Below are positions 36,931 to 64,000 of a stretch of 64,000 nucleotides of DNA, piece by piece (positions within the stretch are counted from its first letter, which is position 1; each line of letters starts with the position of its first letter). This DNA is from Brachionus manjavacas. Its lineage: Eukaryota > Rotifera > Eurotatoria > Ploima > Brachionidae. The notes beneath the pieces are model-generated. The model was given only the letters and a program-made list of their open reading frames with translations. It was not told where the DNA came from and did not search any database. The stretch covers positions 3,162,001 through 3,226,000 of the forward strand of contig JAHQIY010000002.1 in the NCBI GenBank assembly GCA_019054805.1, written 5' to 3'. Both the position numbers and the translations under genes were made by a program.

Positions 36931-36952
36931 ATTTATTTGGGTTTGTTTTACT

Positions 36953-39008: not shown

Positions 39009-39012
39009 TTAA

Positions 39013-40197: not shown

Positions 40198-40234
40198 TTA
40201 TTGTTTAAAAAAAGAAAACTATAACCAATATTTA

Positions 40235-40735: not shown

Positions 40736-40744
40736 TCACATGTA

Positions 40745-43009: not shown

Positions 43010-43549
43010 TTTGTATTTTGTGAAAGACAGTGAAATGATTATTTAAAATTGTGCTCGACAAACGACATTTACATTTATTTAAATAAGTCAATGTACGATA
43101 AAAATCGGCAAGATAAACCATCAATCAGTGGAATATTTTAAGGCATCTCTGGTTTGTAAAGAAGACGTTCACAATTCAATTCAAAGAATAAAAGAATAAT
43201 GAAAGATTCAGAAAATAATTTAGCAGTCTTTTATTAAAATTGCTATTTTAGATAATTGCACAAAGGTAAATTTTACCGCAAAGCTAAAAATAATTTACAA
43301 GTGCAACAGACTGTCAATTAGTGATTGTAATAATTAACTGGCAAAATAATGTGGTTGTTGGTCATTCAATACACAAACTGAAACTAGTGAACCCTTAAGT
43401 GTCACTAAAACAATTCTTTGTAAATTTTGGATGATCTTTACAAAATTAAATTTTGGTAGTCAATTGAATAATCTTAATCATTTTTTTGTAATTTTTTTGT
43501 AAACAAACTGAATTTTTTACTTTATTGTAAAATGGATATTTAACTGTCC

Positions 43550-43751
43550 ATTTTTTTTTTTATTTCAATTTTTCCATGGGACTTAAACTTTAATTAAATA
43601 AATAAATAAATAAAATCTAAAAAGGAAAATGTTGACCTTAACAAGAAAATAAATAGTAATAAATTATCAAACAGCATCGTCCATTGAGCTCGGTTCAATA
43701 TCAAAGGAACATTTGAAACTGTTCAGTAATCAAATAAATAAATAATGAATT
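43550..43751. other. A-rich junk with LINE-tail-like ends
   Basis: Short tails of AAATAAATAAATAAAT and a block ATTGAGCTCGGTTCAATATC suggest decayed LINE 3' ends. GTTGACCTTAACAAGAAAAT recurs, reversed, at 53,850 and 63,740. Confidence 0.5.
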
Positions 43752-44620
43752 TAAAAGATATCAGTTGAGAGGTCGTGTTCAGTAGTCTTTTCTAGGTACA
43801 AAAAAAGTGATAATCAATACTTAAAAATTTATGGAAACAAATTAGTGAGCCAAAAAGAAATCAAGTTTCTTGGTATTAAATTTGATTCTAAGCTAAACTT
43901 CAATATACTGATGGACGAAATTAAAGAACGCTGCAATAAAAGGCCAAATATTATTAAGATATTATAATTATAATTATTATTTATTTCAAAAAATTACGCC
44001 AAATTTTGCAGTGTATAAAAAATAAAATAAAAAGTATCAAGTATCATTATTAAGATATTGTCAAATAAAAAATGGGATCTTACTCAAAACACACTAGGAA
44101 ATTTTTACAAATCTTTAGTCGGATCAATTTTAGACTATTCTTTTCCTTGCTTGAATTCATTTTCAGAAAATAATATCAAAAAACTACAAGCAATTCAGAA
44201 TACAGCAGAAAGATCTACCCTTAAGTTTAAATGTGATACTCCCTCCAACATCGTGCATCATGAAATTTTTAATAAACTTAAATTACTAACAGTCTCGAAT
44301 CGGTTTTTTGAGTTGAGAGATAGAGTAGTGTTGGGACAGGAATGAGTCATTCTATTCTATTGGTTGTCAGACTGGTGGAGGAATACAAAGAAGGTTTCGA
44401 ATCGAAATATATTGAATACCCAACTCCATTGTGTAATTGCTAACTTACTATTTCCTCCTTTTTTCCTGACAACTGAACTATGTAAACATGTGCCACAATT
44501 AGCAATCAATGTATTCTTAACTTTCATTTTTTTTTTAGTTTATTTACTTTATTTTGATTTTTTTGTAATTCATTCTGAAGGAGCCCTAGCTCGTTACAAA
44601 AATCAAATAAATAAAATAAA
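43752..44620 (+). mobile_element. Jockey-like LINE 3' part (family A), left-arm copy
   Basis: It reads KEIKFLGIKFDSKLNFNILM, an interrupting 82-bp insert, SNKKWDLTQNTLGNFYKSLV, LDYSFPCLNSFSENNIKKL, AERSTLKFKCDTPSNIVHHE and EGFESKYIEYPTP, then the family A tail (GAAGGAGCCCTAGCTCG) ending about 44,620. It has frameshifts near 44,330 and no RT catalytic box. The right-arm mirror is at 62,760-63,632. Confidence 0.85.
43950..44059. repeat. 82-bp insertion flanked by a 14-bp direct repeat
   Basis: ATTATTAAGATATT occurs at 43950-43963 and 44046-44059 around an 82-bp insert. Removing the insert and one repeat restores the LINE reading NIIKILSNKKW. The insert contains TTATTTATTTC and an ACGCCA word like the LINE tails at 22,767 and 51,985, so it is probably a tiny retrotransposed 3' end with its target-site duplication. 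The right arm carries it too. Confidence 0.85.
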
Positions 44621-44794
44621 TCAGAATCTAATTGACCTGCTTTGTGTTCAAAGGGACCATAGACCCGCAGTTTAAATTAATAATTAAAAAAAATTCAATT
44701 ATCTTTTGTTATGCTCATAATTCCCATTAGTCCCTTTTTATCCTAGTCGATAATGAAGAGGCGCTATCTTATACCAAAGAAACAAATACCAATT

Positions 44795-45125
44795 AAGATA
44801 CTCCTCGTGGAGCATTGGATCATTTCTTTTGATTTTCATTCAAATGTATCTTTTGCCTTTACCCTTGCTTCTCCCCATGTCATACCCATTTCGATGAGCT
44901 CTTTCGTGATTGTTGACCTCCATTTTACTGCTTGTCGTCTTACCATACGTCGCCCTTGAGGTGTCCATTGGAGGGCCCTTTTTGGTATCCGTGTTTCTTT
45001 CATTCTAAGTACATGCCCAAGCCGTCGCAGTCTTTTGTTCTTAATGCATTCACTGAATTTGTTATTCTGTTTAGGTCAGCATTCGACAATGTCTCAGGCC
45101 CAAATATCTCAATTTTTATAAAATA
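44795..45125 (-). mobile_element. RTE LINE 3' fragment, decayed (left arm)
   Basis: The minus strand matches the 3' end of the RTE at 52,163-53,755 (the ETLSNADL, LIEMG and CSTRSE regions) but with many stops and a deletion (the block around the GHVLRMKETR region is damaged). It mirrors 62,265-62,590. It is older than the 52-kb insertion of the same family. Confidence 0.75.
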
Positions 45126-45979
45126 ACTTAATCAAAAAAATGCTCAAAATAACTAAAAATATCCAACACTGTCTTTATCCAAAGTAATCTTTTTATTGAA
45201 AAATTTAAAATTTCTCATCCAGTGGTGGTCCATGAAAATCAATTTTATTTTTAAGCTCTTTTTTTTTTAATAGAATCTTAAAATATTTTTTTGTTCTGTT
45301 TGGTTATTAAGAAACCTTTTTTTTTGTTAAAATTTAGTATTTAATTAGGATGGTATTCAAATCCTATCGGTATTTGTTTCCGTCGTTATTAAATTCTTAA
45401 AATTTTCTGGTACAAAATTCTGTTCGAATTAATTTCATTGTTAATAGATTCGTGGAATAAGTTTTGTTAGATATTACCAAAGACTAATCAAACATACATT
45501 TAAAATTAACTTATAAATTTAATTCAAAAAAGAGAAAAATTAGAATTAAAAAGCTTTAAAAAATGAGTTAATCCTTTGATAAATATTGACATATTTTGAA
45601 TTGTTAATTTTTTTGTTAATTTATCTATAATTTATTCTTTTTAAAAATGTAAAATAAATTTAAAGTTTTTTATAATTTTTAATTGAATTTAAAAATAAAA
45701 TATATTAATTCATTATATTTTTGATTCATTTTTGAAGAATAAACTTTATCATAATATTTAATTTCAAATATTTAGTTGCAAGAAACAAAAAAATGCTCTT
45801 TAAACAAAAAAGTAATATTAAATAAAAATAAGAATTTAGCAAAAAGTGTTTTTTTAAATCCTTCAAAACATCCATGTATTATTTCTACTAAGAGTTTGCG
45901 AAATATTAAAATATTGTGAAAAATAAAATAAAACTTTTTAAATTTCAAAATTTTCAAAATCATAAAAAAGTCGGTGAAA
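45126..45979. other. AT-rich part of the duplicated unit
   Basis: No gene. The stretch 45,715-45,900 (GAATAAACTTTATCATAATA and following) has another copy at 49,930-50,080 beside IF1 as well as the right-arm copy. Confidence 0.5.
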
Positions 45980-46397
45980 CAGTGCTTTTAAAAAAGGTCC
46001 AGGATTGGCTAAATTACGTAATTTTCATTAATTTTTAGTAATCTTCCGGAAGTTTACGTAATCTTACGTGAATATTTGCTGGTAAGAATATGTAATTACA
46101 CGTAAAATTACTTTAGTTTTCATTAAAAATCGTAAATTTTAGTAAAATTATTTCAAAATTTTGTAAAAACAGTCAATTTTTAAATTTTTCTTACCGAAAC
46201 CTAATTGTTTTTGGCCGTTAGCAATTAGGCATAATTTTACTAAAAGTTACGTTTTTTAAATGAAAGGTAACATAATTTTACGTATAATTACATGTTCTTA
46301 GCAAAAAAAAATATAAACGTATGATTACGTAAGTTTACTAAAAAGAATGCAAAATAACATAAATTCATCTGATTCTGGACATTTTATAAACGCACTG
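45980..46397. mobile_element. 418-bp MITE with CAGTGC ends (left arm)
   Basis: Terminal inverted repeats of about 40 bp: CAGTGCTTTTAAAAAAGGTC at the left and, reversed, CAGTGCGTTTATAAAATGTC at the right. The interior is full of ACGTAA words on both strands (TTACGTAATCTTACGTGAAT, ATTACGTAAGTTTACT) around a central ATTGTTTTTGGCCGTTAGCA. No ORF. A full copy is in the right arm (60,989-61,404); a partial copy lies at 50,080-50,276. CAGTG-type ends suggest a Tc1/mariner or pogo affiliation, but a TA target duplication is not clear. Confidence 0.8.
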
Positions 46398-47043
46398 TAG
46401 GTGTTGTTATCGGTCTAAAATTTTAATTTATTCATGGAACTTTTTCTTTTTTTGTTTTTTAAAGTATGATTTATATTTTAATACTATTTTTGATATCTAA
46501 TATTTTACTTTTTAAAATCGTTACCATAAACGAAATAGTTGAATTTAAATAAGAGTTTGTGGAGTTTGAAAAAAAATTTGAAAAATAAAATAAACCTTTT
46601 TAAATTTCAAAATTTTTCAACATTAAAAAATGGTCGGTGATAGGCTTAGAATATTTGAATTATTTACTTAGTTTAAAAAAATGTAATCACAAAAAATTAT
46701 TTTGAATATCAAGACTTTTCTATTTTAAGTTTGAAATTTTTTGTTCTTTTTAAGAGATTTTTTATTTTGATTAGGAAATTATTTTCTCTCTTTTAATGCT
46801 TGTTATTTCTCATATTTTATTTGACTCAATTTTAAGTTGAGAAGCTAATATAAATCATATTTGATTATTTTAATCAAACATATATTTAAATTTTATCTAA
46901 AATGCTAAACTTTAACATAACAACAGACGCGTAGTAAAAACAACTTATGGTTTAAATTTTCTCTTTAATGTAAAGTGACTATCAAAGTTTACATATAAAT
47001 TTAATTTAAATAGAGAAAAATTAAAATTTAAAAGCTTATAAAA
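46398..47043. other. Single copy of a unit that is tandem in the right arm, and ASS1 5' flank
   Basis: 46,400-46,640 (TATCGGTCTAAAATTTTAAT to CAACATTAAAAAATGGTCGG) corresponds to a unit present about three times at 60,160-60,988. The rest is the upstream region of ASS1. Confidence 0.6.
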
Positions 47044-48547
47044 ATGAGTTCTTTCAAAAATGAAAATAGAACTGTTGTCTTGGCTTATAGTGGTGGATTA
47101 GACACATCTTGCATTCTAGTTTGGTTAATTGAGCAAAACTATGAAGTTATAGCTTATATGGTAAAAGATAACCAAACTATTTATCCACCCAGAATTTTTT
47201 AATTACAACCTTTTAAAGGCTAATATTGGTCAAGATGAAGACTTCAATTCTGCCAAAGAAAAAGCTTTGAAACTCGGAGCCAAAGATGTAATTTTTTTCT
47301 CTTAAAAAGCTAAATTTTTTATTTCTTAAAAAAGTTTGTTTGCCTTGATTTGAGAAAAGAGTTTGTTGTAGATTACATTTTTCCTGCAATACAAGCAAAC
47401 GCTATTTACGAGGACAGATATCTTTTAGGAACATCTCTGGCTCGTCCATGCATTACTAAGTAAACTAATTCTTATATTTTTTCTCAAATATTTAAAAAAA
47501 GAGTAAATTTAGAGGTTTGATTAAAGTAGCGTATGAAAAAACGCAGCTTATATCTCTCATGGTGCAACTGGCAAGGGAAATGATCAAGTCAGATTTGAGT
47601 TGAGTAGCTTTGCGCTTAAACCTGATATTGAAGTAATATCACCATGGAAAATACCTGAATTTTATGAGCGCTTCAAAGGAAGAACTGACTTGTTCAATTA
47701 TGCTTCTGCTCACGATATTCCTTTACCAGTGACTCCAAAAAATCCGTGGTCAATGGATGCCAATTTGCTGCACATTAGCTATGAATCTGGTATTTTGGAA
47801 AAACCGGAATGTCCAGCTCCAGATAATATTTATCAAATGACCTCGAATCCTAGTGACTGGCCTGACACCGCTGATCTAATTAAAATCGAGTTTAAAAAAG
47901 GAATTCCAGTAAATGTAAAAAATTTGAGCAAATCTGTATCTTTTTCTGACCCACTTGATATAATGAATTATTTAAATGAGATCGGAAAAATCCATGGCAT
48001 TGGAAGAATTGATATTGTTGAAAATAGATTTGTCGGCATGAAATCAAGAGGTATCTATGAGACACCTGGAGGGACCATTTTATATAATGCTCATTTAGAT
48101 ATAGAGCTTTTAACAATGGATAGAGTATACTTTTGATTATTTTTTCTTTTTCTTTTAATGCTTTGAGTAGGAAGTAAGAAAAATCAAGCAATCTTTGGTA
48201 CCTAAATATTCTGAAATAATATATAATGGATTTTGGTTTAGCCCAGAAGCTAATTTTATGAGAGATATTATAACAAAAAGTCAAGAAAATGTTGACGGAT
48301 CAGTAACTGTGTCAGTTTTTAAAGGAAATGTGTATGCCAAAGCAAGAGAGTCGAATAAATCCCTATATAATGAAACTTTAGTTAGCATGGATGTAAAAGG
48401 AGACTATGAGCCTTCGGATGCTGCAGGATTTATTAAAATAAACGCTGTCAGGTAAAATTAAATAAATTTGAATAGATTTAAATTCTGAAAAAATTATTAA
48501 ATTTTAGATTAAAAGAAAATTATTTGCAAAGAGGTTCAAAGTTTTAA
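47044..48547 (+). pseudogene. ASS1: Argininosuccinate synthase, left copy with one-base frameshift
   Basis: There are six exons: 47044-47160, 47219-47287, 47335-47459, 47513-48124, 48171-48451 and 48508-48547. Introns are 46-58 bp with GT-AG ends. Without the frameshift it would be 414 residues (human 412). ASS1 joins citrulline and aspartate using ATP in arginine synthesis. Visible: the ATP P-loop [83 protein letters not shown] and [12 protein letters not shown]. In exon 4 a run of six A (47536-47541) replaces the seven A of the right copy; reading shifts and stops at 47601-47603. This is either a real inactivating deletion or a homopolymer error in the assembly. The 3' end converges on FAXC, 146 bp away. 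Confidence 0.9.
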
Positions 48548-48693
48548 GAATTTTTTTTAGCTAGAAAACTTTTTTCAAAAATTCAAAAACTTTAATTTTA
48601 AATAAATTTTTCTAATTCCTATTTCAGTTTATCATAAAAAAAAATTTAAATTCCATACGTTTTTATTAAAATTAGAAGACAATGTTATTTTGA

Positions 48694-49535
48694 TTATCTG
48701 GAACGGTCCTCCCAATCTTTCCAGTAAAGGTTTTTTAAATTTTCAAAATACCTAAAAAGAAAAGGAAATTTTTTTTTTCTCAGCGTCTCTATTTCTGAAT
48801 TATTCAGACAAAAAATTTGACTAAGGATACCAAATAAAGCTGCATCGTTTGCCGTAGGTATTTCACCAAATAGGAATTTTTTTGATTTTAAAAAATCTTG
48901 CATAGCCATCAAATCTAATTCAATAGTTTCCGATACTATAAAATAAAAAAATGAATTTTAGAAAAATAAAAACCAAATTCACCTTTTTCTCTTGAGTGAT
49001 TTGAATTAAATTTAATTTCATTTTTTAAATTTTTTCTATTTAACATAAACTCAATCCATGATAACTGGACATCTTCTTGGGATCCAAATAAATATCTGTA
49101 AATCAAAATTGATTTTGCCAGACTGTGTTTGTTAAAAACTAAGAAAGATCTAGCTATTGATTTTTCTATTCGATTTAAACAATCAGATAGGTCTTTTCCA
49201 TAGGCTCTTCCCAAATAATTAATGGCTTCATCTATACCAGAAAGAGTTATTCCGTGAAGAACTATTTTTGGCTTATTATGGTATGAGTAAAATCGAGAGT
49301 TAATTAAATTTAAATCATATGTAATACCGGATATTCTTAGCCAAGTCTCTAATTGAATCAACTCAATACTCCTACTCGGGCACTTCGAGTGAGCGTCTTT
49401 GTAGTGAATTAAAACAGGTTTATTTTTTGGAAAGATGATCTTGCTACGTCTTCGCTTAACAACAAGAATAGTTATTCCTAGAGTGAGGAGAGCTGTTGCA
49501 GACAGAATTTTAAAATTAGTCAATTTAATAATCAT
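48694..49535 (-). CDS. FAXC: FAXC (failed axon connections)/metaxin-like GST-fold protein
   Basis: The gene has two exons, 49535-48983 and 48935-48694, with a 47-bp intron; the product is 264 residues. An N-terminal membrane anchor (ILSATALLTLGITILVV) precedes a basic stop-transfer (KRRRSK). A thioredoxin-like N-domain follows (KPVLIHYKDAHSKCPS, LETWLRISGITYDL), then a GST C-terminal helical domain (KFLFGEIPTANDAALFGILS, FENLKNLYWKDWEDR). The pattern L-E-T-W-L-R-I-x-x-I-x-Y-x followed by P-T-x-x-D-x-A-x-F-G is that of the FAXC/CDR-type family. In flies it affects axon development; the biochemical role is unsettled. Reading through the intron gives only GEFGFYFSK and a stop, so splicing is required. 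It is divergent from IF1 by about 100 bp. Its last exon is partly duplicated at 57,905-58,089. Confidence 0.88.
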
Positions 49536-49636
49536 AATAAATTATGAAACAAAAACATGAAATATTTCGTTAATTTTGAAATAACAAACAAATAAATAAC
49601 TTTGAAAATATTTCTTTATTTTAAGATTTTTTTTCA

Positions 49637-49840
49637 ATGGAGAATTCTCAAGGTTATTCAACTGGAAAATACGGAGGACCCATTTGCCAAAGTGGAGGTG
49701 CTTTTGGAGCTAGAGAACACTTAAATGAAGAAATTTATTTCAGAAAACAAGATGAAATAAAATTTGAACAAATGAGAAATAAAATAAAAACTCAAAAGCA
49801 AAAAGAAGATAAAAAAGAATCTGATCAAGCGAAAACTTGA
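49637..49840 (+). CDS. ATPIF1: ATP synthase inhibitor IF1-like protein
   Basis: A 67-residue single-exon protein. The core GGAFGAREHLNEEIYFRKQD is the minimal inhibitory region of IF1, which inserts between alpha and beta subunits of mitochondrial F1 and blocks ATP hydrolysis. The C-terminal third is a charged helix (QMRNKIKTQKQKEDKKES). Two things are odd. The sequence before the core (MENSQGYSTGKYGGPICQS) lacks the arginine-rich presequence usual for mitochondrial import. The histidine pair that sets pH control in mammalian IF1 is absent. It may therefore be a cytosolic form, as nematode MAI-1 is, or miss an upstream exon. Divergent from FAXC by 101 bp. An AATAAA at 49952-49957 lies inside a dispersed repeat copy. 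Confidence 0.85.
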   Translation: MENSQGYSTGKYGGPICQSGGAFGAREHLNEEIYFRKQDEIKFEQMRNKIKTQKQKEDKKESDQAKT

Positions 49841-49924
49841 AGTTTTCCAGTAATAAGAATTCAGAAAAAAATGGTGATGTAAACAATATGACTCTTGAAA
49901 ACTTGAAAATGAAATATACAAATT

Positions 49925-50276
49925 CATTATAATATTGATTCATTTTTAAAGAATAAACTTTATTTTAATATTTAATTTCAAATTAAGTCGCAAGAAACAA
50001 AAAAATTGCTTTTTAAACAAAAAGATAAAATTAAGGAAGAAGTTTTTTTTTCAATCTTTCAAATAATCCATGTTTTAGTATTACTAAGATTTTACGTGAA
50101 TATATGTTTGTAAGCATTTGTAATTATACGTAAAATTATATTAGCTTACATTAAAAATCGTAAATTTTAGTAAAATTATTTCAAAATTTTGGAAAAACAG
50201 TCAATTTTTACATTTTTCTTACCGAAACCTAATTGTTTTTGGCCGTTAGCAATTAGGAATAATTTTACTAAAAGTT
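49925..50276. repeat. Third, deleted copy of the 45.7-46.25 kb repeat
   Basis: 49,930-50,075 matches 45,715-45,890, and 50,080-50,276 matches 46,055-46,255 (inner part of the 418-bp MITE). About 165 bp between them, including the MITE's left end, is missing. Direct orientation relative to the left arm. It also ends abruptly in AAAAGTTATGG, where the GC-richer block starts. Confidence 0.8.
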
Positions 50277-50600
50277 ATGGCTGCTCACCTATCATATAAA
50301 AAAGCCGGTGATACATTATTTCTCTTGCAATGGCTGCTCACCTATCAATTGATCTTCAAAAAATGGTTCAGTCGTTCTAATCGGCTGATTAGTGGTCGAA
50401 TGATGCTGCTGATTGTTTGCTGTAACGCATTGGTAAGTTTGATGCACAGACATGTGTTCCCTATTTCTCATTCTATCGGAGCTGTAGCCAGATTACGCTT
50501 GACCAATGCATTTTTGACGAGAGTATGTCCAGTCTCGATCTTTGCGAAAAATATAGAGTGTTTGAGTAGGTCGTGTTTAGTCTTAGTTTAATGTTATCAA
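50277..50600. other. GC-richer block of unknown origin with a direct repeat
   Basis: Composition changes sharply here. ATGGCTGCTCACCTATCA occurs at 50277-50294 and again at 50331-50348. One plus-strand frame is open for 104 codons, but minus-strand frames also read protein-like (IETGHTLVKNALVKRN, then TNALQQTISSIIRPLISRLE) with a frame break. I recognise no family; a decayed transposon gene on the minus strand is my best guess. Confidence 0.4.
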
Positions 50601-51189
50601 GGTTAAACAAAAGGCTGGTGCCGATTTCATAACAAACCGATTATTATTTTGATATAATTCTAAAAAAAATTATTACAAATTTAAAAATAAAATTTATTTA
50701 AATAATATAAATGATTTAAAAAAGTTATTTTAAAAAAACTAAAACATTGAAATGTTTAATAAATAATAATTAAAATATTTTTTTTTTCATATTATTGAAT
50801 ATAGAATGTTTGAGTATTGCAGACTTCAACAATGATCTCTTGATCACAAAGCTATTCATCAGTCTTGTATAAAATTTTAACAATTTTTGACAAATGGTTC
50901 AATCAGGTTGTCACTAATTCTTGAATTGTATTTTAAATCTCAAGAATCATTTTTCTATAATTTCATTCTTAAATTTTCAGGCGAATTATGGAAAAAAAAA
51001 GTTTAAAATGCAATTAGTATAAATAAGCCTAATTAAAAAAAAGCATGAAAGCCATATTTTTTTATAAATTTTTTAAAGTCATTGAAGTGATCAATACCAA
51101 ATTTATATTTAATAAATCGCGCCTTTTTTTTTAGCAGAATCATATTTTATTTATAATACTGTAAACGATTTAATCGAAGTGAATTAGCA
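50601..51189. other. AT-rich intergenic DNA
   Basis: No gene or repeat is recognised. Confidence 0.4.
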
Positions 51190-51925
51190 GATGGAGGAAA
51201 GGAGACGCAGTTGAGAGGAAAGGTTTATCGGAGAATGATTAGGATTTCTCTTAGGCCTTCATTAGTCCATGGATATGAGGGTGAGGAAACAAATCATGAC
51301 AGCGCTTGACTCACCCTATGTAATATGTGTAGCAGAAACTTGGTTCCAAGAAGACTATGTGCCTTCAATGCACAACTTTGTATTATATAGACGTGATAGA
51401 GCTGGTCACGGTGGTAGTGTTGCCATATTCGAACCGTAAAATCTTCAGAAATTACAAACGCAAGCTAAAAAGCTAGTAACCGACCAAGTTGAGCAAATAA
51501 GGTGTGAAGTGAGCTTTAAAAACGAGAAACCATTAGTTAAACATTAATATCGGACCCTGTGGCGAGTAGAGTTTAGTCAGAAATCCACAAAGAAATAGCT
51601 AGTGCGGATGAGATCTGGCAATCGGACAAAGTAACAGTGTTAAGTGCAAGTCGTTCTCTTAGCCACGCATTAGTTGACGCGTTGAATAACTAGTCTTTGC
51701 ATCAAGCAGTTGACATCAGTTTGCATCAAGCAAGACATTTATAGATGCTGGGAGTATTTTCTGGCTTGTTCATTCATCAGACAAGAGCAAGACTCTATTA
51801 CCAAAAAGGTGATAATGTGACTATGAATAAAAAGCTTTAAACAGCCAAAGCTTTCAACAAGCAATTCTCATCAGTTTTTGTTTAAGAGTCTGATAAAGAA
51901 AATCTTACTGATAAAATGTAAGCAC
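51190..51925 (+). mobile_element. CR1-like LINE fragment: endonuclease and linker
   Basis: With frame breaks it reads DSPYVICVAETWFQEDYVPS, MHNFVLYRRDRAGHGGSVAI, then KSLVTDQVEQIRCEVSFKNE-like text. Near 51,790-51,900 comes LYYQKGDNV, then TAKAFNKQFSSVFV. These are the start of an APE endonuclease (A/V-ETW, YRRDRxGHGGG-AIF) and the segment before RT of CR1-type LINEs. Most of the endonuclease and all of the RT are lost. Less AT-rich than its surroundings. Confidence 0.75.
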
Positions 51926-51984
51926 GTATTTTGAATTATATACAATTAAAACTTAATTTACTGTAAAAGGATATCGAATTTAAT

Positions 51985-52050
51985 TATTATTATAATTATT
52001 ATTTAGTTTCAATTTACGCCAATTCTGACGATGATAATATATATAAAATA
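51985..52050 (-). mobile_element. LINE 3' tail with CGCCA hairpin
   Basis: The minus strand has ATCGTCAGAATTGGCGTAAA followed by TAAATAATAATTATAATAAT. It is the same signature as 22,767-22,810, in the opposite orientation. Confidence 0.55.
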
Positions 52051-52057
52051 ATTTAAT

Positions 52058-53775
52058 GACCGTAATTATCCGAATTGAGTGACATATCTTAAAAATAGAG
52101 TACTCTAGTTAAGTGACACGCATGTAATAGATTCTATAGTGACATGTCACTAAATCCGGATATTTTTTTTTTTTTTTTTTTTTTTCCTTATTCACTCCTT
52201 GTGGAGCATAGGGTCATTACTTTTGATTTCCACTCAAGTCGATCTTTTGCCTTTACCCTTGCTTCTCCCCATGTCATACCCATTTCGATGAGCTCTTTCG
52301 TGATTGTTGACCTCCATGTTACTGCTGGTCGTCCTACCTTACGTCGCCCTTGAGGTGTCCATTGGAGGGCCCTTTTTGGTATCCGTGTTTCTTTCATTCT
52401 AAGTACATGCCCAAGCCGTCGCAGTCTTTTGTTCTTAATGCATTGACTTAATGGCTCTGAATTTGTTCTTCTGTATAGGTCAGCATTTGACAATGTCTCA
52501 GGCCAGTGTATCCCGAGAATCCTCCGCAGGCTTCCCGTGTGGAAGCTGTTAAGGCTTTTCCTGTCAGATTCACTTATCCCCCAACATTCACTTCCGTACA
52601 TCAATGTTGCTTTTACTACACTGTTGTATAGTTTAAGCTTTGTTTCCTTGCTAAAGCTTTTTGATTTCCATGCTGGTCGGAGTCTAGCAAAGACACTCTT
52701 TGCTTTAGCAAGTCTATTCTTAATTTCTCTGTGTGTTCCCAACGTTGTATTAATTGTGCTACCTAGGTATGTGAATTCATTTACACACTCGATTTGTGCA
52801 CCATCGATGATGATCGGGGTATCCAATTTGGTGTTTATGCACATAACTTTCGTTTTGGCTCCATTTATTTCGAGTCCAGTTGGTTTAGCGTTGTTCGCCA
52901 AGTCTTGCGTCTTCATATGCATATGTGCTTCTGTATTAGATATTAGCACCAGATCATCCGCAAAGTCTAAGTCTTCAAGTTTTGCAGTTAATCCCCATTG
53001 AATACCTCTCGCACTAACCGTAGTTATCTTCATGACATAGTCAATCAATATTAGAAATAGTGTCGGAGAGAGAACGCACCCTTGTCTGACTCCTGTACAC
53101 ACTTTGAAACTCTCAGATTTTCCTTTTTCCAGAATCACGTTACACTCGAAATTCTCGTAGAAGAGTTTTATCAAGTTAACTATCTTCTGTGGTAGGCCAT
53201 AAGATCTTAATATAGCCCACAAGGTTTCTCTGTGTATGCTATCAAAAGCTTTCTTGAAGTCAATGAAGTTAAGATACAGGGGGCTATTCCATTCCAGACT
53301 TTGTTCTATGATGTTCCTTATTGTAAATATCTGGTCTATGCATCCTCTACCTCGTCTAAAACCTGCTTGTTCTTCTCTAAGTATAACATCTAAAGAATTC
53401 CTGATTCGTTCCAGTATTATACTGCAGAACGCCTTGCTTGCTATTGGAAGCAGTGTTATTCCTCGCCAATTGTCACATATCATTTTGTTACCTTTCTTTG
53501 GGAGCCTGACTATTAGACCTTTTGACCAGTCCTCTGGTATTATTTCTTGCCGCCATATCTTACTGAAGAGGTCTTGCAATATCCCTACTGTGATACTGCC
53601 ATCAGCTTTTAACATTTACCAGAATACGGTTTAGAGGTGCTAGGTATATGTGAAAGTCGCTGGACAGGATCAGGCCAAATAAACAACAGTAGATGGACCT
53701 TCCTGTATTCTGGTACTGATAACACAAGACAACACGGCGTAGGGATAATTCTTTCAAATCCGGATAATTACGTTC
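52058..53775. mobile_element. Small palindromic MITE, split by an RTE insertion
   Basis: The left terminal repeat at 52058-52083 (GACCGTAATTATCCGAATTG, then AGTGAC) has its inverted partner at the far side: GTCACTAAATCCGGATA at 52146-52162, continued by ATTACGTTC at 53767-53775. With the inserted LINE and one target duplication removed the arms match at about 23 of 26 positions. The original element is only about 115 bp. Confidence 0.8.
52163..53755 (-). mobile_element. RTE-type LINE insertion with 5' inversion, poly(A) and target duplication
   Basis: The minus strand carries a 475-codon uninterrupted RT frame (53615-52188): ITLLPIASKAFCSIILERI, AGFRRGRGCIDQIF, FKKAFDSIHRETLW, GVRQGCVLSPTLF, the catalytic FADDLVLIS and the C-terminal ILGIHWPETLSNADL, GRPAVTWRS and CSTRSE. 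This is the RTE/BovB-like clade. The stop is followed by ATAAGG and 23 A (52185-52163). From about 53,620 to 53,755 the plus strand instead encodes part of the family's endonuclease (LEVLGICESRWTGSGQ, then RQHGVGIILS), so the 5' end is inverted. AAATCCGGATA flanks both sides (52152-52162 and 53756-53766). The intact frame, long A tail and perfect target duplication mark a young insertion. Confidence 0.95.
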
Positions 53776-53839
53776 ATTTAAATTAGTGAAATGAAATGAT
53801 TATTTGTGGCACATGTGTTTGATTATTTATTTATATTTA

Positions 53840-54687: not shown

Positions 54688-55228
54688 TAGACAATGAAAA
54701 TATTTAAAAATAAAAATCCTTTCTGTACTTTTTGTACTTTTTCAGAATATTATTTTATTTGGTCCTGTTCCTTTTTGTACTTTCTGTACTTTTTGTACTT
54801 TTTGTACTTTTTCAGAATATTATTTTATTTGGCCCTGTTCCTTTTTGTACTTTCTGTACTTTTTGTACTTTTTCAGAATATTATTTTATTTGGCCTTGTT
54901 CCTTTTTGTACTTTCTGTACTTTTTGTACTTTTGGTTCTTAATGGTAATAAAAAAACCTTTTATTAATATTTAACTAATATTTTTCTTACCTTCAGCATA
55001 CCCGAATCCCTAAACCAGGGCTCCGCCCCGGACCCCGTTTAAGTTTTAATAAAATTATTAAAATTATCATTAATCACAGAAACAGGGCCAAATAAAATAA
55101 TATTCTGAAAAAGTACAAAAAGTACAGAAAGTACAAAAAGGAACAGGGCCAAATAAAATAATATTTTGAAAAAGTACAAAAAGTAAAGAAAGGAAAATGA
55201 TTTTTTAAAAGTTTGATCCCATTGTCTA
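54688..55228. mobile_element. Foldback-type element with tandem repeats in its arms
   Basis: The outer ends are TAGACAATG (54688) and CATTGTCTA (to 55228). The left arm contains three tandem units of 60-70 bp, each with TTTTTGTAC words, CAGAATATTATTTTATTT and GGCCCTGTTCC (54,716-54,935). The right arm holds about two units in inverse orientation (55,077-55,195). The unique centre includes a GC-rich block (GGGCTCCGCCCCGGACCCCG, 55019-55038). Open frames across the repeats are artefacts of the repeat. Inverted arms made of tandem repeats are the hallmark of foldback elements. Confidence 0.8.
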
Positions 55229-55650
55229 TCCATGCAATTTTTATCAAAAAAATTTTTTTCATGAAAATTGTTTTTTTTCGAGAAATTTTTGATTTTTTTT
55301 TTCACTGAATCTTACAGTAATTATCGGTATTTTACGATAATTATCGTTATTTTACGAAAAATACCCTTTTTTAGATTACCATATTTTACGGTAAATATGG
55401 TAAAATATCGTGAATTTACCATAATTTACGTAAAATATCGTGAATTCAAGGTATCGTAGCAGCACTGTATATAAAGAAAAAAAACTTAAAACAAAATTAT
55501 AATTTTATTTCAGGGAAAAAACATATAATCAGTTGAATAAAAAAGGTAAAACACATAAACCAAAATCAAAAATTTTATAAAAGAAAAATAGATATATTCA
55601 ATTGAATAAAAAGGATAAAACACATAAACCTAAACCAAAAAATTTTTTAA
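55229..55650. other. Palindrome-rich AT DNA between foldback and piggyBac
   Basis: 55,315-55,445 is packed with short palindromes (TTACGATAATTATCGTTATT, TTTTACGGTAAATATGG). GCACTGTATA at about 55,459 looks like the right end of a CAGTGC-type element whose left end I cannot find. 55,500-55,640 has about two copies of an AAAACACATAAACC-containing unit. Confidence 0.5.
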
Positions 55651-57091
55651 CACTAGAAGACCCGATTTTTTTTATACCGTTAAGTCCCAAAATGGGTTTA
55701 AAAAACCCATTTTCTAATTTAACTCTAACTAAGGTCAAAATAAAGTTTTTTTTTCAAAATAAAATTTATTTAATGTTATTTATGCTAATTAATAGTAGCT
55801 TGATTATGGAGAAAAAAAATGTATTATATTTAAGCCATATGATTAAAAATTCTGACATAATTACATTTTAAATAAAAGAAAAAATGAAATTTTTAATGAA
55901 AAAACTCTAATTTAAAACTTTTTTCCATCTTCAAAACACTTTTGACATAAAGCTATGTTTTTTTTGTTCTTTACAACATGTACCACAACAATACTTTTTA
56001 CATGAAATACAGGTAACGTTTGTTTTATTCTGATTACAAAACCTAATTCGACAATTTTTCTTATCCTTTTTTGTGTCCATTTTTTTGGATGGAGTCGAAT
56101 CAACATTCAAATCAACTGATGCAAGTCTTTTACGAGTAGGGGAGTTTTTGGTGTCGTTGGTTGACTATTAGATGAAGATGCCTGAGAATTCCTTGAACCT
56201 TTAGTGGTCTCAGAGAGCTCCTCAACAAGTTTGATTATGAAGTCTCTTCTGGTAATTTTAGATTTGTTTACCTCTTTGAACAAAACCTCTTGACAACAAA
56301 AGACCAATAAAAGCAAGAATTTCTTCTTTTTTTAATGACAATTGAGGGTCAACAGACTCAGCAAAAGCATTTGTACAGTCTAGTACCATTTTTACCATGC
56401 TCAAATCAAAAATGACCAAAAATGCCGATAAAGCAGTGCTATCTATTCTTGAAGCTGCAAAACTTGTAGGACCACTTTTTTCATTAAAAACTATTCTTTT
56501 TCTAATACATGTTTCATCACCGTCATCTAACTTAGTCCAATGAACACCAGCTTTTGAAGTTTTGTCTAAATTTCTAGATTGCCCAGATGGTGGTTGTTGG
56601 TCACTGCTGCATTCAATTGGTTCATCGAATTCAGACTCACATTCATCGTCTGATGAATAATCAGAAACAAGATATTCATCTTCAGAGTCTAAATCTTGAA
56701 GGTCAAAATCAACGTCAGACTCGTCTGAGCCACCTGATTCGGCATCGTTGGCATTGACAAGTAAGTTTAATGCACGTAGGGCTGAAGCTCTGATTGGCAT
56801 TTTTATAATTTTTAATTGTTTGATAAAGTTAATAGTAAAATTATAATTTTTTTAGTGTCAAAAAGTTGAAAAATTTAACTGGGTTTAAAAAACTCCCTCC
56901 GGGACTTTATGTATAATTTTTTTTTTTGACACCAAAAAATTATAATTTATAAATTCTAACTATCAAATTACATATACAATTCATTTTCAAATTAAAGAGG
57001 AAAAAAAAATTTAAAAAAAAAAAATTTTTCTGATTTTTATTCGATTTTTTGCAAAAAAAAAGAGCTTAAAAAACCCGCGGGTCTTCTAGTG
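55651..57091 (-). mobile_element. Internally deleted piggyBac transposon (1,441 bp)
   Basis: Both ends read CACTAGAAGACCCG inward and are flanked by TTAA (55647-55650 and 57092-57095), the piggyBac target. The minus strand encodes a transposase N-terminus from ATG 56800 (acidic DSEDEYLVSDYSSDDE, then VFNEKSGPTSFAASRI and LSLKKEEILAFIGLLLSRG). It jumps by frame into a late segment (KEVNKSKITRRDFIIKLVEE) and ends with a cysteine-rich tail (KKNCRIRFCNQNKTNVTC, then CKKYCCGTCC). The middle DDD catalytic domain, normally several hundred residues, is missing. The coding is interrupted, so it can only move in trans, if at all. Subterminal hairpin AAAATGGGTTTAAAAAACCC lies inside the left end. Related to the remnant at 39,013. 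Confidence 0.9.
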
Positions 57092-57179
57092 TTAAATCTT
57101 AAATTTAATTCAAGAGAAAAACACATAAAATCAATTGAAAAAAAAGATAAACAGCATTAATTTAATTCTAATTCCTTCA

Positions 57180-57480
57180 TTAATCATATTGTAAACAAGG
57201 ACCAGCTTTTCGCTTCCGACCTTCTTTAGGTCTATTTTGAAAATATTTTGTAGTTAATAAGCCGGGATAATTAATTTTATTTTTGAATAAACAAGAGATT
57301 AGATGTACACACATTCCTTTGTCCATAAAATATGAACACGAACAATAGCAGCAATTAATGCAAAAGCATTCATCGCTAACAGCAACTTGATAAAGATTGT
57401 CATAAGTAAATGCGAATGATCTTGAATGGATCAAAATTTGCGTTTCAAAAATTTCGCATACCGGTAATACGTTTGATTTA
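57180..57480 (-). pseudogene. SWIM-type zinc-finger fragment (MULE-like)
   Basis: The minus strand reads LPVCEIFETQILIHSRSFAF, then CFCINCCYCSCSYFMDKGMC, VHLISCLF, and a basic end (RPKEGRKRKAGPCLQYD, stop). CxC...CxH with SYFMDKGMCVHLI is a SWIM finger, found in MULE-type transposases and a few cellular proteins. A TTKYFQNRPKEGRKRKAGP-like end follows it in transposon copies. No transposase core is upstream in the window, so I treat it as a fragment. Confidence 0.6.
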
Positions 57481-57482
57481 AT

Positions 57483-57705
57483 TTTATGTTTTTTCTCTTT
57501 TAGAATTTTATAATTTATGTCTTTTTTCTCTCATTATATAAGCTAAATTTGTTAAAATTGATTTTATGTTTTTTCTCTTTTTGTTTTTTATAATTTTATG
57601 TTTTTTTTCTCTCATTATTTAAGCTAAATTTGTTTAATTAGTTATATGTTTTTTCCTTTTTTTAATGTTTTTTTCTCTTTTTTTATGTTTTTTTCTACCT
57701 CACCC
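57483..57705. repeat. About 80-bp tandem repeat (two units plus fragments)
   Basis: Two units, about 57,483-57,562 and 57,563-57,641, share ATTTTATGTTTTTTCTCTTT, a second TTATGT block, TTTTCTCTCATTAT and TAAGCTAAATTTGTT. Shorter ATGTTTTTTTCTCTTTTT pieces continue to 57,690. Similar words in reverse flank the piggyBac element on its left (55,500-55,640), so that element may have landed inside this array. Confidence 0.7.
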
Positions 57706-57904
57706 ATCAAAATTTTACAAAGAATTGTTTTAGTGACACTTGAAGATTCACTAGATTCAGTTTGTGATTGAATGACCAACATCCATATTATTTTGCCAGT
57801 TAATTACTATAATCACTAATTGACAGTCGCTTGAACTTGAAATTATTTTTAGCTTTGCGGTAAAATTTACCTTTGTGCAATTATCTAAAATAGCAATTTT
57901 AAAA

Positions 57905-58089
57905 AATTCCTATTTGGTGAAATACCTACGGCAAACGATGCAGCTTTATTTGGTATCCTTAGTCAAATTTTTTGTCTGAATAATTCAGAAATAGAGACGC
58001 TGAGAAAAAAAAAATTTCCTTTTCTTTTTAGGTATTTTGAAAATTTAAAAAACCTTTACTGGAAAGATTGGGAGGACCGTTCCAGATAA
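57905..58089 (+). pseudogene. FAXC last-exon fragment
   Basis: About 60 codons matching the end of the FAXC gene at 48,694-48,880 (FLFGEIPTANDAALFGILSQ to YWKDWEDRSR, stop at 58087-58089). Everything upstream, including exon 1 and the promoter, is absent because the duplication breakpoint falls inside the exon. It lacks a start and cannot make FAXC. Confidence 0.93.
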
Positions 58090-58235
58090 TCAAAATAACA
58101 TTGTCTTCTAATTTTAATAAAAACGTATGGAATTTAAATTTTTTTTTATGATAAACTGAAATAGGAATAAGAAAAATTTATTTAAAATTAAAGTTTTTGA
58201 ATTTTTGAAAAAAGTTTTCTAGCTAAAAAAAATTC

Positions 58236-59739
58236 TTAAAACTTTGAACCTCTTTGCAAATAATTTTCTTTTAATCTAAAATTTAATAATTTTTTCAGAA
58301 TTTAAATCTATTCAAATTTATTTAATTTTACCTGACAGCGTTTATTTTAATAAATCCTGCAGCATCCGAAGGCTCATAGTCTCCTTTTACATCCATGCTA
58401 ACTAAAGTTTCATTATATAGGGATTTATTCGACTCTCTTGCTTTGGCATACACATTTCCTTTAAAAACTGACACAGTTACTGATCCGTCAACATTTTCTT
58501 GACTTTTTGTTATAATATCTCTCATAAAATCAGCTTCTGGGCTAAACCAAAATCCATTATATATTATTTCAGAATATTTAGGTACCAAAGATTGCTTGAT
58601 TTTTCTTACTTCCTACTCAAAGCATTAAAAGAAAAAGAAAAAATAATCAAAAGTATACTCTATCCATTGTTAAAAGCTCTATATCTAAATGAGCATTATA
58701 TAAAATGGTCCCTCCAGGTGTCTCATAGATACCTCTTGATTTCATGCCGACAAATCTATTTTCAACAATATCAATTCTTCCAATGCCATGGATTTTTCCG
58801 ATCTCATTTAAATAATTCATTATATCAAGTGGGTCAGAAAAAGATACAGATTTGCTCAAATTTTTTACATTTACTGGAATTCCTTTTTTAAACTCGATTT
58901 TAATTAGATCAGCGGTGTCAGGCCAGTCACTAGGATTCGAGGTCATTTGATAAATATTATCTGGAGCTGGACATTCCGGTTTTTCCAAAATACCAGATTC
59001 ATAGCTAATGTGCAGCAAATTGGCATCCATTGACCACGGATTTTTTGGAGTCACTGGTAAAGGAATATCGTGAGCAGAAGCATAATTGAACAAGTCAGTT
59101 CTTCCTTTGAAGCGCTCATAAAATTCAGGTATTTTCCATGGTGATATTACTTCAATATCAGGTTTAAGCGCAAAGCTACTCAACTCAAATCTGACTTGAT
59201 CATTTCCCTTGCCAGTTGCACCATGAGAGATATAAGCTGCGTTTTTTTCATACGCTACTTTAATCAAACCTCTAAATTTACTCTTTTTTTAAATATTTGA
59301 GAAAAAATATAAGAATTAGTTTACTTAGTAATGCATGGACGAGCCAGAGATGTTCCTAAAAGATATCTGTCCTCGTAAATAGCGTTTGCTTGTATTGCAG
59401 GAAAAATGTAATCTACAACAAACTCTTTTCTCAAATCAAGGCAAACAAACTTTTTTTAAGAAATAAAAATTTAGCTTTTTAAAGAAAAAAATTACATCTT
59501 TGGCTCCGAGTTTCAAAGCTTTTTCTTTGGCAGAATTGAAGTCTTCATCTTGACCAATATTAGCCTTTAAAAGGTTGTAATTAAAAAATTCTGGGTGGAT
59601 AAATAGTTTGGTTATCTTTTACCATGTAAGCTATAACTTCATAGTTTTGCTCAATTAACCAAACTAGAATGCAAGATGTGTCTAATCCACCACTATAAGC
59701 CAAGACAACAGTTCTATTTTCATTTTTGAAAGAACTCAT
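58236..59739 (-). CDS. ASS1: Argininosuccinate synthase, intact right copy
   Basis: There are six exons on the minus strand: 59739-59623, 59564-59496, 59449-59325, 59271-58659, 58612-58332 and 58275-58236. All joins keep the frame and give 414 residues. It catalyses ATP-dependent condensation of citrulline with aspartate to argininosuccinate (arginine synthesis, urea and NO-linked recycling; cytosolic). Landmarks: [15 protein letters not shown] (ATP pyrophosphatase loop), [85 protein letters not shown] and [17 protein letters not shown]. Exon 4 keeps the seven-A run (GAAAAAAAC) that the left copy has lost. One visible amino-acid difference from the left copy is SPEADFM versus SPEANFM. About 2 kb of upstream sequence was copied with it, so its promoter is probably included. 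Confidence 0.95.
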
Positions 59740-60159
59740 TTTTATAAGCTTTTAAATTTTAATTTTTCTCTATTTAAATTAAATTTATATGTAAACTTTG
59801 ATAGTCACTTTACATTAAAGAGAAAATTTAAACCATAAGTTGTTTTTACTACGCGTCTGTTGTTATGTTAAAGTTTAGCATTTTAGATAAAATTTAAATA
59901 TATGTTTGATTAAAATAATCAAATATGATTTATATTAGCTTCTCAACTTAAAATTGAGTCAAATAAAATATGAGAAATAACAAGCATTAAAAGAGAGAAA
60001 ATAATATCCTAATCAAAATAAAAAATCTCTTAAAAAGAACAAAAAATTTCAAACTTAAAATAGAAAAGTCTTGATATTCAAAAAAATTTTTGTGATTACA
60101 TTTTTTTAAACTAAGTAAATAATTCAAATGTTCTAAGCCTATCACCGACCATTTTTTAA

Positions 60160-60988
60160 TGTTGAAAAATTTTGAAATTTAAAAAGGTTTATTTTATTTT
60201 TTTAATATTCCGCTAACTCTATTTAAAATTCAACAATTTCGTTTTTGATAACTTTTTAAGATAGTATAAATAATAATTTAAAACAAAAATGAAAAAAGTT
60301 GCATTAATAAATTTAAAATTTTAGACTGATAGCAACACAAACAACAAAATAAAAAAAAAGGAAGAAAAATTTTGAAATTTTGAAAAGGTTTATTTTATTT
60401 TTCAAATTTTTTTAAAACACCACAAACTCTAATTAAAATTCAACAATTTTGTTTTTGGTAACTATTTTGAAAACTAAAATAGTAGATATCATTAAAAGTA
60501 TTAATAATTCTCCCTTTTCTATCCTAGTGGATAATGAGGAGGCGCTCATCTCCTTTTCTAGTATTTTTTTTGAGCAATGGCTCCGATCTGGCACAGAAGT
60601 TACTGCATCGAATTGATCACCTTCACTGAATAAGCATTTTAATCATAAATTTTTTTTCACTTTTGTTTTAAAGTATAAATCATACTTTAAAACAAAAATA
60701 AAAAATAATTTCCATGAAAAATTAAAATTTTAGACCGATAACAGCACATACAACAAAATAATATAAAGAAGAAAAATTTTGAAATTTAAAAAGGTTTATT
60801 TTCTTTATCAAATTTTTTTTCAAACTCCACAAACTCTTATTTAAATTCAACTATTTCGTTTATGGTAACGATTTTAAAAAGTAAAATAGTAGATATCAAA
60901 AATAGTATTAAAATATGAATCATACTTTAAAAAAAATTTCCATGAAAAAATTAAAATTTTAGACCGATAACAACACATACAACACCTA
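60160..60988. repeat. Tandem-unit expansion specific to the right arm
   Basis: Copies of a unit with TTGAAATTTAAAAAGGTTTA, CAAACTCTTATTTAAATTCA and TTTTAGACCGATAACA-like words start near 60,170, 60,370 and 60,775; the left arm has one (46,400-46,640). Between the second and third lies an unrelated less AT-rich piece (60,515-60,640, GGATAATGAGGAGGCGCTCA) related to the sequence at 44,745-44,775. Confidence 0.7.
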
Positions 60989-61404
60989 CAGTGCGTTTAT
61001 AAAATGTCCAGAATCAGATGAATTTATGTTATTTTGCATTCTTTTTAGTAAACTTAAGTAATCATACGTTTATATTTTTTTGCTAAGAACATGTAATTAT
61101 ACGTAAAATTATGTTACCTTTCATTTAAAAAACGTTAATTTTAGTAAAATTATGCCTAATTGCTAACGGCCAAAAACAATTAGGTTTCGGTAAGAAAAAT
61201 GTAAAAATTGACTGTTTTTACAAAATTTTGAAATAATTTTACTAAAATTTACGATTTTTAATGAAAACTAAAGTAATTTTACGTGTAATTACATATTCTT
61301 ACCAGCAAATATTCACGTAAGATTACGTAAACTTCCGGAAGATTACTAAAAATTAATGAAAATTACGTAATTTAGCCAATCCTGGACCTTTTTTAAAAGC
61401 ACTG
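60989..61404. mobile_element. CAGTGC-ended MITE, right-arm copy
   Basis: A 416-bp reverse counterpart of 45,980-46,397 with the same about 40-bp inverted ends. Small differences inside confirm that the arms are not identical copies. Confidence 0.8.
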
Positions 61405-62264
61405 TTTCACCGACTTTTTTATGATTTTGAAAAATTTTGAAATTTAAAAAGTTTTATTTTATCTTTCACAATATTTTAATATTTTGCAAACTCATAGTAA
61501 AAATAATACATGGATGTTTTGAAGGATTTAAAAAAACACTTTTTGCTAAATTCTTATTTTTATTTATTACTTTTTTGTTTAAAGAGCATTTTTTTGTTTC
61601 TTGCAACTAAATATTTGAAATTAAATATTATGATAAAGTTTATTCTTCAAAAATGAATCAAAAATATAATGAATTAATATATTTTATTTCTAAATTCAAT
61701 TAAAAATTATAAAAAACTTTAAATTTATTTTACATTTTTAAAAAGAATAAATTATAGAAAAATTAACAAAAAAATTAACAATTCAAAATATGTCAATATT
61801 TATCAAAGGATTAACTCATTTTTTAAAGCTTTTAAATTCTAATTTTTCTCTTTTTTGAATTAAATTTATAAGTAAATATTAAATTTATGTTTGATTAGTC
61901 TTTGGTATTATCTAACAAAACTTATTCCACGAATCTTTTAACAATGAAATTAATTCGAACAGAATTTTGTACCAGAAAATTTTAAGAATTTAATATCGAC
62001 GGAAACAAATACCGATAGGATTTGAATACCAACCTAATTAAATATCAAATTTTAACAAAAAAAAAGGTTTCTTAATAACCAAACAGAACAAAAAAATATT
62101 TTAAGATTCTATTAAAAAAAAAAGAGCTTAAAAATAAATTTGATTTTCATGGACCACCACTGGATGAGAAATTTTAAATTTTTCAATAAAAAGATTACTT
62201 TGGATAAAGAAAGTGTTGGATATTTTTAGTTATTTTGAGCATTTTTTTGATTAAGTTATATTAT
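61405..62264. other. AT-rich part of the right arm
   Basis: Reverse counterpart of 45,126-45,979. No gene is seen. Confidence 0.5.
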
Positions 62265-62590
62265 AAAAATTGAGATATTTGGGCCTGAGACATTGTCGAA
62301 TGCTGACCTAAACAGAATAACAAATTCAGTGAATGCATTAAGAACAAAAGACTGCGATGGCTCGGGTATGTACTTAGCATGAAATAGACACGGAAACCAA
62401 AAAGAGCCCATCAATGGACACCTCAAGGGCGACGTATGGTAAGACGACAAGCAGTAAAATGGAGGTCAACAATCACGAAAGAGCTCATCGAAGTGGGAAT
62501 GACATTGGGAGAAGCAAGGGTAAAGGCAAAAGATACATTTGAATGAAAATCAAAAGAAATGATCCAATGCTCCACGAGGAGTATCTTAAT
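62265..62590 (+). mobile_element. RTE LINE 3' fragment, decayed (right arm)
   Basis: Mirror of 44,795-45,125: FGPETLSNADLNRITNS, later blocks with stops, and the end of the RTE C-terminus. Inactive. Confidence 0.75.
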
Positions 62591-62759
62591 TGGTATTTGT
62601 TTCTTTGGTATAAGATAGCGCCTCTTCATTATCGACTAGGATAAAAAGGGACTTATGGGAATTATGAGCATAACAAAAGATAATTGAATTTTTTTTAATT
62701 ATTAATTTAAACTGCGGGTCTATGGTCCCTTTGAACACAAAGCAGGTCAATTAGATTCT

Positions 62760-63632
62760 GATTTATTTTATTTATTTGATTTTTGTAACGAGCTAGGGCT
62801 CCTTCAGAATGAATTACAAAAAAATCAAAATAAAGTAAATAAACTAAAAAAAAAATGAAAGTTAAGAATACATTGATTGCTAAATGTGGCACATGTTTAC
62901 ATAGTTCAGTTGTCAGGAAAAAAGGAGGAAATAGTAAGTTAGCAATTACACAATGGAGTTGGGTATTCAATATATTTCGATTCGAAACCTTCTTTGTATT
63001 CCTCCACCAGTCTGACAACCAATAGAATAGAATGACTCATTCCTGTCCCAACACTACTCTATCTCTCAACTCAAAAAGCCGATTCGAGACTGTTAGTAAT
63101 TTAAGTTTATTAAAAGCCTAATGATACACGATGTTGGAGGGAGTATCATATTTAAACTTAAGGGTAGATCTTTCTGCTGTATTCTGAATTGTTTGTAGTT
63201 TTTTGATATTATTTTCTGAAAATGAATTCAAGCAAGGAAAAGAATGGTCTAAAATTGATCCGACTAAAGATTTGTAAAAATTTCCTAGTGTGTTTTGAGT
63301 AAGACCCCATTTTTTATTTGACAATATCTTAATAATGATACATGATACTTTTTATTTTATTTTATTTTTTACACTGCAAAATTTGGCGTAATTTTTTGAA
63401 ATAAATAATAATTGTAATAATAATATCTTAATAATATTTGGCCTTTTATTGCAGCGTTCTTTAATTTCGTCCATCAGTATATTGAAGTTTAGCTTAGAAT
63501 CAAATTTAATACCAAGGAACTTGATTTCTTTTTGGCTCACTAATTTGTTTCCATAAATTTTTAAGTATTGATTATCACTTTTTTTGTACCTAGAAAAGAC
63601 TACTGAACACGACTTCTCAACTGATATCTTTT
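62760..63632 (-). mobile_element. Jockey-like LINE 3' part (family A), right-arm copy
   Basis: Mirror of 43,752-44,620, with the same 82-bp insertion and 14-bp repeat (about 63,330-63,435), SNKKWGLTQNTLGNFYKSLV and the family A tail at its low-coordinate end. A local change at about 63,118 (CATCGTGTATCATTAGGCTT) replaces the HHEIFNKLK codons, so this copy has an extra lesion. Confidence 0.82.
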
Positions 63633-64000
63633 AAATTCATTATTTATTTATTTGATTACTGAACAGTTTCAAATGTTCGTTTTATATTCAACCGAGCTCA
63701 ATGGACGATGCTGTTTGACAATTTATTACTATTTATTTTCTTGTTAAGGTCAACATTTTCCTTTTTAGATTTTATTTATTTATTTATTTAATTAAAGTTT
63801 AAGTCCCATGGAAAAATTGAAATAAAAAAAAAATGGACAGTTAAATATCCATTTTAAAATAAAGTAAAAAATTCAGTTTGTTTACAAAAAAATTACAAAA
63901 AAATGATTAAGATTATTCAATTGACTACCAAAATTTAATTTTGTAAAGATCATCCAAAATTTACAAAGAATTGTTTTAGTGACACTTGAAGGTTCACTAG
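63633..64000. other. Right-arm end, A-rich
   Basis: Mirror of 43,387-43,751, including the GAGCTCAATGG and AAATAAATAAAT pieces. The window stops inside the duplication. Confidence 0.6.

Follow-up and report, generated by a model that had tools for sequence, protein, structure and literature searches.

The stretch of DNA considered here, referred to as the window, covers 64,000 nucleotides of the rotifer Brachionus manjavacas (assembly GCA_019054805.1, contig JAHQIY010000002.1, positions 3,162,001 to 3,226,000 of the forward strand; G+C 27.4%), and it contains a large inverted duplication that carries copies of an argininosuccinate synthase gene (ASS1), of an immunoglobulin (Ig)-domain gene, and of the end of a third gene. 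All coordinates are given in window numbering, including those larger than 64000. When the window was compared with itself by BLAST, positions 60771-64000 were found to be the reverse complement of 43384-46618 (97.0%, E = 0.0), and 57901-60283 the reverse complement of 46488-48882 (98.3%, E = 0.0); a separate repeat search agrees. The repeat passes the end of the window: with the flanks of the same contig added, 41386-46618 matches the reverse complement of 65995-60771 at 97.5%. A base-by-base alignment places the confident core of the left arm at 41411..48882 (forward strand, about 7.5 kb) and that of the right arm at 57901..65970 (reverse strand, about 8.1 kb); about a quarter of the right arm lies beyond the window edge, its in-window part being 57901..64000. 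The arms are separated by a spacer of 9,018 bp (48883..57900), and both are found on one contig of 9.9 Mb. The genome itself points to the species: a vasa guide target published for B. manjavacas (PMC10395877) has a single, exact hit in a search that tolerated one mismatch, and two vasa primers from that paper each have one exact match in the surrounding locus, where together they span 144 bp, so that the animal is B. manjavacas or a very close relative.

Each arm holds two whole genes and part of a third. The left copy of the Ig-domain gene (41510..43009, reverse strand) is a single open frame of 499 amino acids with Pfam Ig domains, and among solved structures its best relatives are neural adhesion receptors (for example neurofascin and DCC), with FGF receptors lower down. 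In the right copy, beyond the window at 64373-65871, the frame is shifted by a single base some 150 codons in. ASS1, for which the closest solved structure is the argininosuccinate synthase 2nz2, was modelled by eye with five exons. Its left copy (47044..48455, forward strand) shows a frameshift of a single base near the start of exon 4, and its right copy (58328..59739, reverse strand) has the same five exons in an uninterrupted frame of 402 amino acids. The third gene shows the domains GST_N_4 (below the Pfam cut-off) and GST_C_6 in two open pieces that span the left inner edge (48694..49541, reverse strand); it is called FAXC here, a label carried over from an earlier note on this DNA rather than drawn from a search. 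FAXC reads through the left inner edge, while the right arm has merely a truncated 3' exon fragment (57901..58089, forward strand). Since the gene is whole on the left side but broken off at 57901 on the other, the junction between the left arm and the spacer reads as the old one.

The two arms differ by 98 substitutions in 7,449 aligned columns (1.32%, or 98.7% identity), and the differences are spread unevenly along the arm. Noncoding sequence accounts for 78 of them in 4,550 columns (1.71%), the Ig gene for 18 in 1,502, and ASS1 for two in 1,208, with none in the 189 columns of the FAXC part. Outside the arms, the outer flanks (30000-41400 and 65980-80000) have a single 38-bp match in common, and between the spacer and the left flank there are a few short matches of repeat sequence. 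The right arm has 607 bp of its own (60202..60808, reverse strand), the placement of which depends on the alignment because of internal repeats. These repeats are only about 85% alike and so predate the split of the arms, which makes a deletion in the left arm the likelier reading. Segmental duplications are defined as stretches of non-transposon DNA, 1 kb or longer, that occur at more than one genomic site with an identity of 90% or more; the present arms are 7.5 kb long and 98.7% identical at two sites.

The self-comparison bears out the central claim of the earlier note, that a large inverted duplication with a whole metabolic gene lies here. Its estimates of 5.6 kb for the arms and 8.8 kb for the gap proved too short. 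The debris of long interspersed nuclear elements (LINEs), the miniature inverted-repeat transposable element (MITE), ASS1 and the FAXC end that it listed are all present, with FAXC intact across the left edge and cut at the right as it described, although the second whole gene, the Ig-domain gene, had escaped it. It had also taken the left arm as the source; that arm is indeed the FAXC-bearing side, but it has itself been altered, with an apparent loss of 607 bp and, in this assembly, the ASS1 frameshift. The latter was missed in its count of coding differences, which otherwise stands at one residue for ASS1.

A third, shorter copy of arm sequence abuts the inner edge of the right arm. This fragment, R2 (57705..57906, reverse strand), is a copy of the 5' flank of the Ig gene, of which the left-arm original, R1, lies at 43229..43433 (forward strand). 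R2 is joined directly to the right arm with about 2 bp shared at the join, in the orientation of a head-to-tail tandem junction. The searches of the genome reported here covered an assembly of 114.2 Mb in 61 contigs, and the numbers of places are lower bounds; the R sequence, about 200 bp long, was found at no fewer than three places, all at this locus, and on this ground R1 and R2 were ruled out as copies of a transposon. Over 188 columns R2 has nine substitutions of its own, as against two in the left copy and one in the right (P = 0.004 under a star tree), which indicates that R2 had already branched off when the arms last had their sequence in common. It is 5-6% diverged, compared with 1.3% between the arms. 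The side of R2 away from the arm adjoins the end of a terminal-inverted-repeat (TIR) element at about 57706, itself split by a piggyBac-type element. R2 also lies directly upstream of the FAXC 3' fragment, in the same direction (57705-58089), and a chimeric transcript is conceivable.

The outer edge of the right arm is flanked by a dispersed repeat, the shared end of which is about 56 bp from the end of the arm core at 65970. Its copies at a minimum of four other places share 66027-66278 and 66482-66789 (one of them only to 66739), and two overlapping loci of one copy also match 65996-66019. Pfam searches of its frame at this locus and of four frames from two further copies found no domain; by its peptide it is LINE-like, a name that stays a guess. 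The idea that this repeat is a later insertion inside a longer arm found no support, the flanks 30000-41400 and 65980-80000 having nothing else in common than the 38-bp match.

The substitutions are especially scarce in the inner part of the arms. Over 47328..48882 (forward strand), there are two in 1,555 aligned columns (0.13%), and 17.6 would be expected with the ASS1 and FAXC coding sequence at the rate of the Ig gene, or 8.0 with coding sequence at 0.1 of the noncoding rate. So long a stretch was reached in none of 10,000 unweighted shuffles of the substitutions, and in 0, 2, 26 and 106 of 3,000 shuffles at coding weights of 0.68, 0.3, 0.2 and 0.1, respectively. Outside the ASS1 and Ig exons, and with the FAXC exon counted as noncoding, one of 533 columns is changed in the inner stretch versus 77 of 4,167 elsewhere (P = 0.0009). 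Constraint thus explains part of the similarity but probably not all of it, and the pattern suggests gene conversion from arm to arm over the inner 1,555 bp; cross-polishing of the arms in the assembly would fit it as well. It is worth pointing out that the “fairly recent event” proposed in the earlier note may confuse age with homogenization, given a divergence of 5-6% for R2, 1.3% for the arms and 0.13% for the inner 1.5 kb.

The two frameshifts fall in opposite arms, ASS1 being shifted on the left and open on the right, and the Ig gene open on the left and shifted on the right. Frameshifts aside, the two ASS1 copies show one synonymous and one amino-acid change over 401 codons, and 16 of the 498 codons differ between the Ig copies; the synonymous changes amount to 1 in 250.7 sites for ASS1 and 6.5 in 314.5 for the Ig gene (dS 0.021, dN 0.010 for the latter). 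A rescue of the left ASS1 by alternative splicing was considered and rejected: in a gene model that was otherwise mis-phased, a shift of the exon 4 acceptor by two bases led to a stop. Both frameshifts are one-base differences within runs of 5-7 identical bases. Such homopolymer runs are the usual site of sequencing error, and polishing is difficult where two copies are nearly identical. The HSP70 genes of the assembly were used as a yardstick. Among 26 matches, three on the bacterial-looking contig C21 were set aside and shorter ones were left unused; eight stretches of 1,581-1,821 nt outside C21, 14,286 nt together, are each open in one frame, one of them spanning only positions 1-524 of 599. 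The sum excludes a ninth open stretch (C1:10649224, 1,749 nt, profile 35-556) and one gene split at profile 130-133 with two internal stops. Because the eight stretches are open, the assembly is not riddled with homopolymer errors. With two frameshifts over 5,424 nt of coding sequence in the duplication and none over 14,286 nt of HSP70, P is 0.076, which is not decisive.

A search with the C-terminal domain of ASS1 gave six matches in the genome: four are exons of the two arms, and two are on contigs C45 and C40, at loci of bacterial appearance that have a G+C content of 46% and 45%, respectively, and argininosuccinate synthase-like frames. No further eukaryotic-looking ASS1 was found by this search. 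C45 and C40, together with C21, which has a 667-amino-acid COX1 frame, possibly represent food or companion bacteria in the assembly. In the assembled sequence the left arm keeps the only open Ig gene, and the right arm the only open eukaryotic ASS1 found. We would tentatively suggest, as a possibility that we ourselves hold to be doubtful, that the copies are decaying reciprocally, with the metabolic gene moving to a new position while conversion still runs over the ASS1 end of the arms.

Taken together, these features very probably mark a genuine inverted segmental duplication, of a kind already known. The duplication brings no machinery of its own; what it adds is another ASS1, another Ig gene and a fragment of FAXC. 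The joint account that we favour, and consider likely, is a real intrachromosomal inverted segmental duplication that originated by template switching and was later partly homogenized. A block of 7.5 kb, with the Ig gene, ASS1 and the last part of FAXC, would have been copied in reverse to a site 9 kb away that is rich in repeats, through template switching or illegitimate repair in the course of break-induced replication. Such an origin would explain the shared junction of about 2 bp, the extra templated fragment and the edges flanked by repeats. Gene conversion would later have homogenized the arms in part, most recently over the inner 1.5 kb. The mechanism, the conversion and the reciprocal gene loss are all steps that we infer, and the replication-based repair is the most economical reading.

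A two-step history is the first of the alternatives, although we think it unlikely. Here an older head-to-tail tandem duplication of 43234-48882, with R2 as the start of the second unit, would have been copied as an inverted array, and a unit would then have been lost on the left. The junction of FAXC 48882 with R 43234 does resemble a tandem junction, R2 predates the split of the arms and needs no gene conversion for its divergence, and the spacer has an older partial direct copy of 45686-46249 (49900..50277, forward strand, in the same orientation as the left arm). However, of the supposed second unit just about 200 bp was found, the left side shows no tandem unit, and the identity of the inner 1.5 kb is left unexplained.

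Somewhat more improbable, in our judgement, is a small inversion with staggered breaks, in which the 9-kb spacer and one arm were inverted and the stretch between the breaks was filled in to leave a copy at each end. Arms in opposite orientation around a spacer are the signature described for such events (PMC7584159), and the one old junction, at FAXC, is also allowed by the model. The breaks would have to be about 7.5 kb apart, however, and the model by itself does not account for R2, the older piece of arm sequence found at the inner junction.

We regard an artefact of the assembly, that is, a mirrored or haplotypic sequence of one locus, as very improbable. False palindromes created by scaffolding are a known problem (PMC7953838), and the locus is known from the assembly. 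A mirrored artefact would have near-identical arms with shared flanks or no true spacer; what is found is a 9-kb spacer, an uneven divergence of 1.32%, flank homology limited to 38 bp, and a single 9.9-Mb contig. The additional 607 bp and the older third fragment at the junction speak against it as well, and haplotypic copies would be expected to share their flanks. On these grounds the judgement of the earlier note, that the duplication is not a mirrored contig, is upheld. Finally, the inverted arms and the transposon sequence inside the spacer might recall the terminal repeats of a large transposable element, an idea that can practically be discarded, since it is contradicted by the copy number (48000-49000 gives the two arm copies and one 47-bp match in a genome search, not the many copies of a TIR), and the arms carry intron-containing host genes.

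Several considerations weigh against the account of a duplication by template switching with later homogenization. The case is built on the assembly sequence, and the ancestral arrangement is read from this one genome. The low-divergence stretch is mostly coding, so that constraint explains part of it, as in the 106 of 3,000 shuffles under the heaviest coding constraint, and its boundaries were set once the data had been seen. Cross-mapping of reads during polishing could homogenize near-identical arms and mimic conversion, and the greater divergence of R2 could reflect a separate, older duplication rather than homogenized arms. The authors of the work on Folsomia candida, moreover, took the view that concerted evolution does not explain the palindromes of that species, which have a wide range of Ks (PMC5490193).

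The arrangement of inverted arms around a spacer is one that this locus has in common with gene-converting palindromes. In the human and ape Y palindromes studied by Rozen et al. in 2003, inverted arms are reportedly kept alike by gene conversion. The arms of the Y palindromes are longer and more alike than those of the rotifer, where the homogenization, if real, is partial. Closer in kind are small invertebrates, with 11 palindromes reported in Folsomia candida and 17 in Adineta vaga (PMC5490193). Like the present arms, these blocks carry whole genes in opposite orientation on one chromosome, and arm-to-arm conversion has been proposed for them (PMC5490193, PMC7953838). The counts in the two species, however, come from gene collinearity in annotations and may include false palindromes, which a survey attributes to scaffolding errors (PMC7953838), whereas the present case comprises two genes and a fragment, with 1.3% divergence, a 9-kb spacer and breakpoints at the level of sequence. 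A second parallel is inversion O7 of Drosophila subobscura, reported to have inverted duplicates and extra fragments at its breakpoints and inverted Attacin copies in concerted evolution (PMC7584159). The rotifer locus resembles it in the closely spaced inverted gene copies, the complex breakpoints and the extra duplicated fragments. For O7, alternative arrangements reveal the ancestral state (PMC7584159), whereas the rotifer locus is known from one arrangement. Among the titles and abstract openings listed in literature searches, none describes the locus, which is not proof of its absence from print. The kind of duplication is already known; new here are the opposite frameshifts, the third R copy, the inner stretch of low divergence and the repeat near the right outer edge.

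The remaining features of the locus are repeats and mobile elements. The MITE at 45979..46399 is common to both arms and belongs to a terminal-inverted-repeat family with dozens of genomic places. In the intergenic part of the arm, where dispersed repeats are found, 44048-44469 resembles 7879-8294, which follows LINE frames for reverse transcriptase and endonuclease. Apart from the rest of FAXC, the spacer contains a LINE with an RVT_1 frame (52188-53615, reverse strand), a minisatellite (54719-54940), and the piggyBac-type element (DDE_Tnp_1_7, 55647-57095) nested in the TIR element that ends at about 57706. The minisatellite units, of about 61-70 bp, extend with an inverted block nearby over 54719-55192. 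The piggyBac-type element shares up to 99.6% identity with parts of other copies and has a TTAA at its right end; from its sequence it looks recently active. The direct copy at 49900-50277 exceeds in length each of the 15 other matches to 45680-45905 found in the genome outside the arms; the locus thus seems to have undergone more than one duplication.

Inverted duplications have been discussed as a means of gene repair by conversion in asexual animals, with the caution that reported cases may include scaffolding errors (PMC7953838). The present locus, in a rotifer where gene editing is reported to work (PMC10395877), offers a small, sequence-resolved case that includes the breakpoints, an older fragment at the junction and a candidate tract of conversion. 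Should both frameshifts prove real, the relocation of a gene by reciprocal loss would here be in progress; and if the reciprocal decay is true, lineages that fix different copies would come to differ in the location of a metabolic gene.

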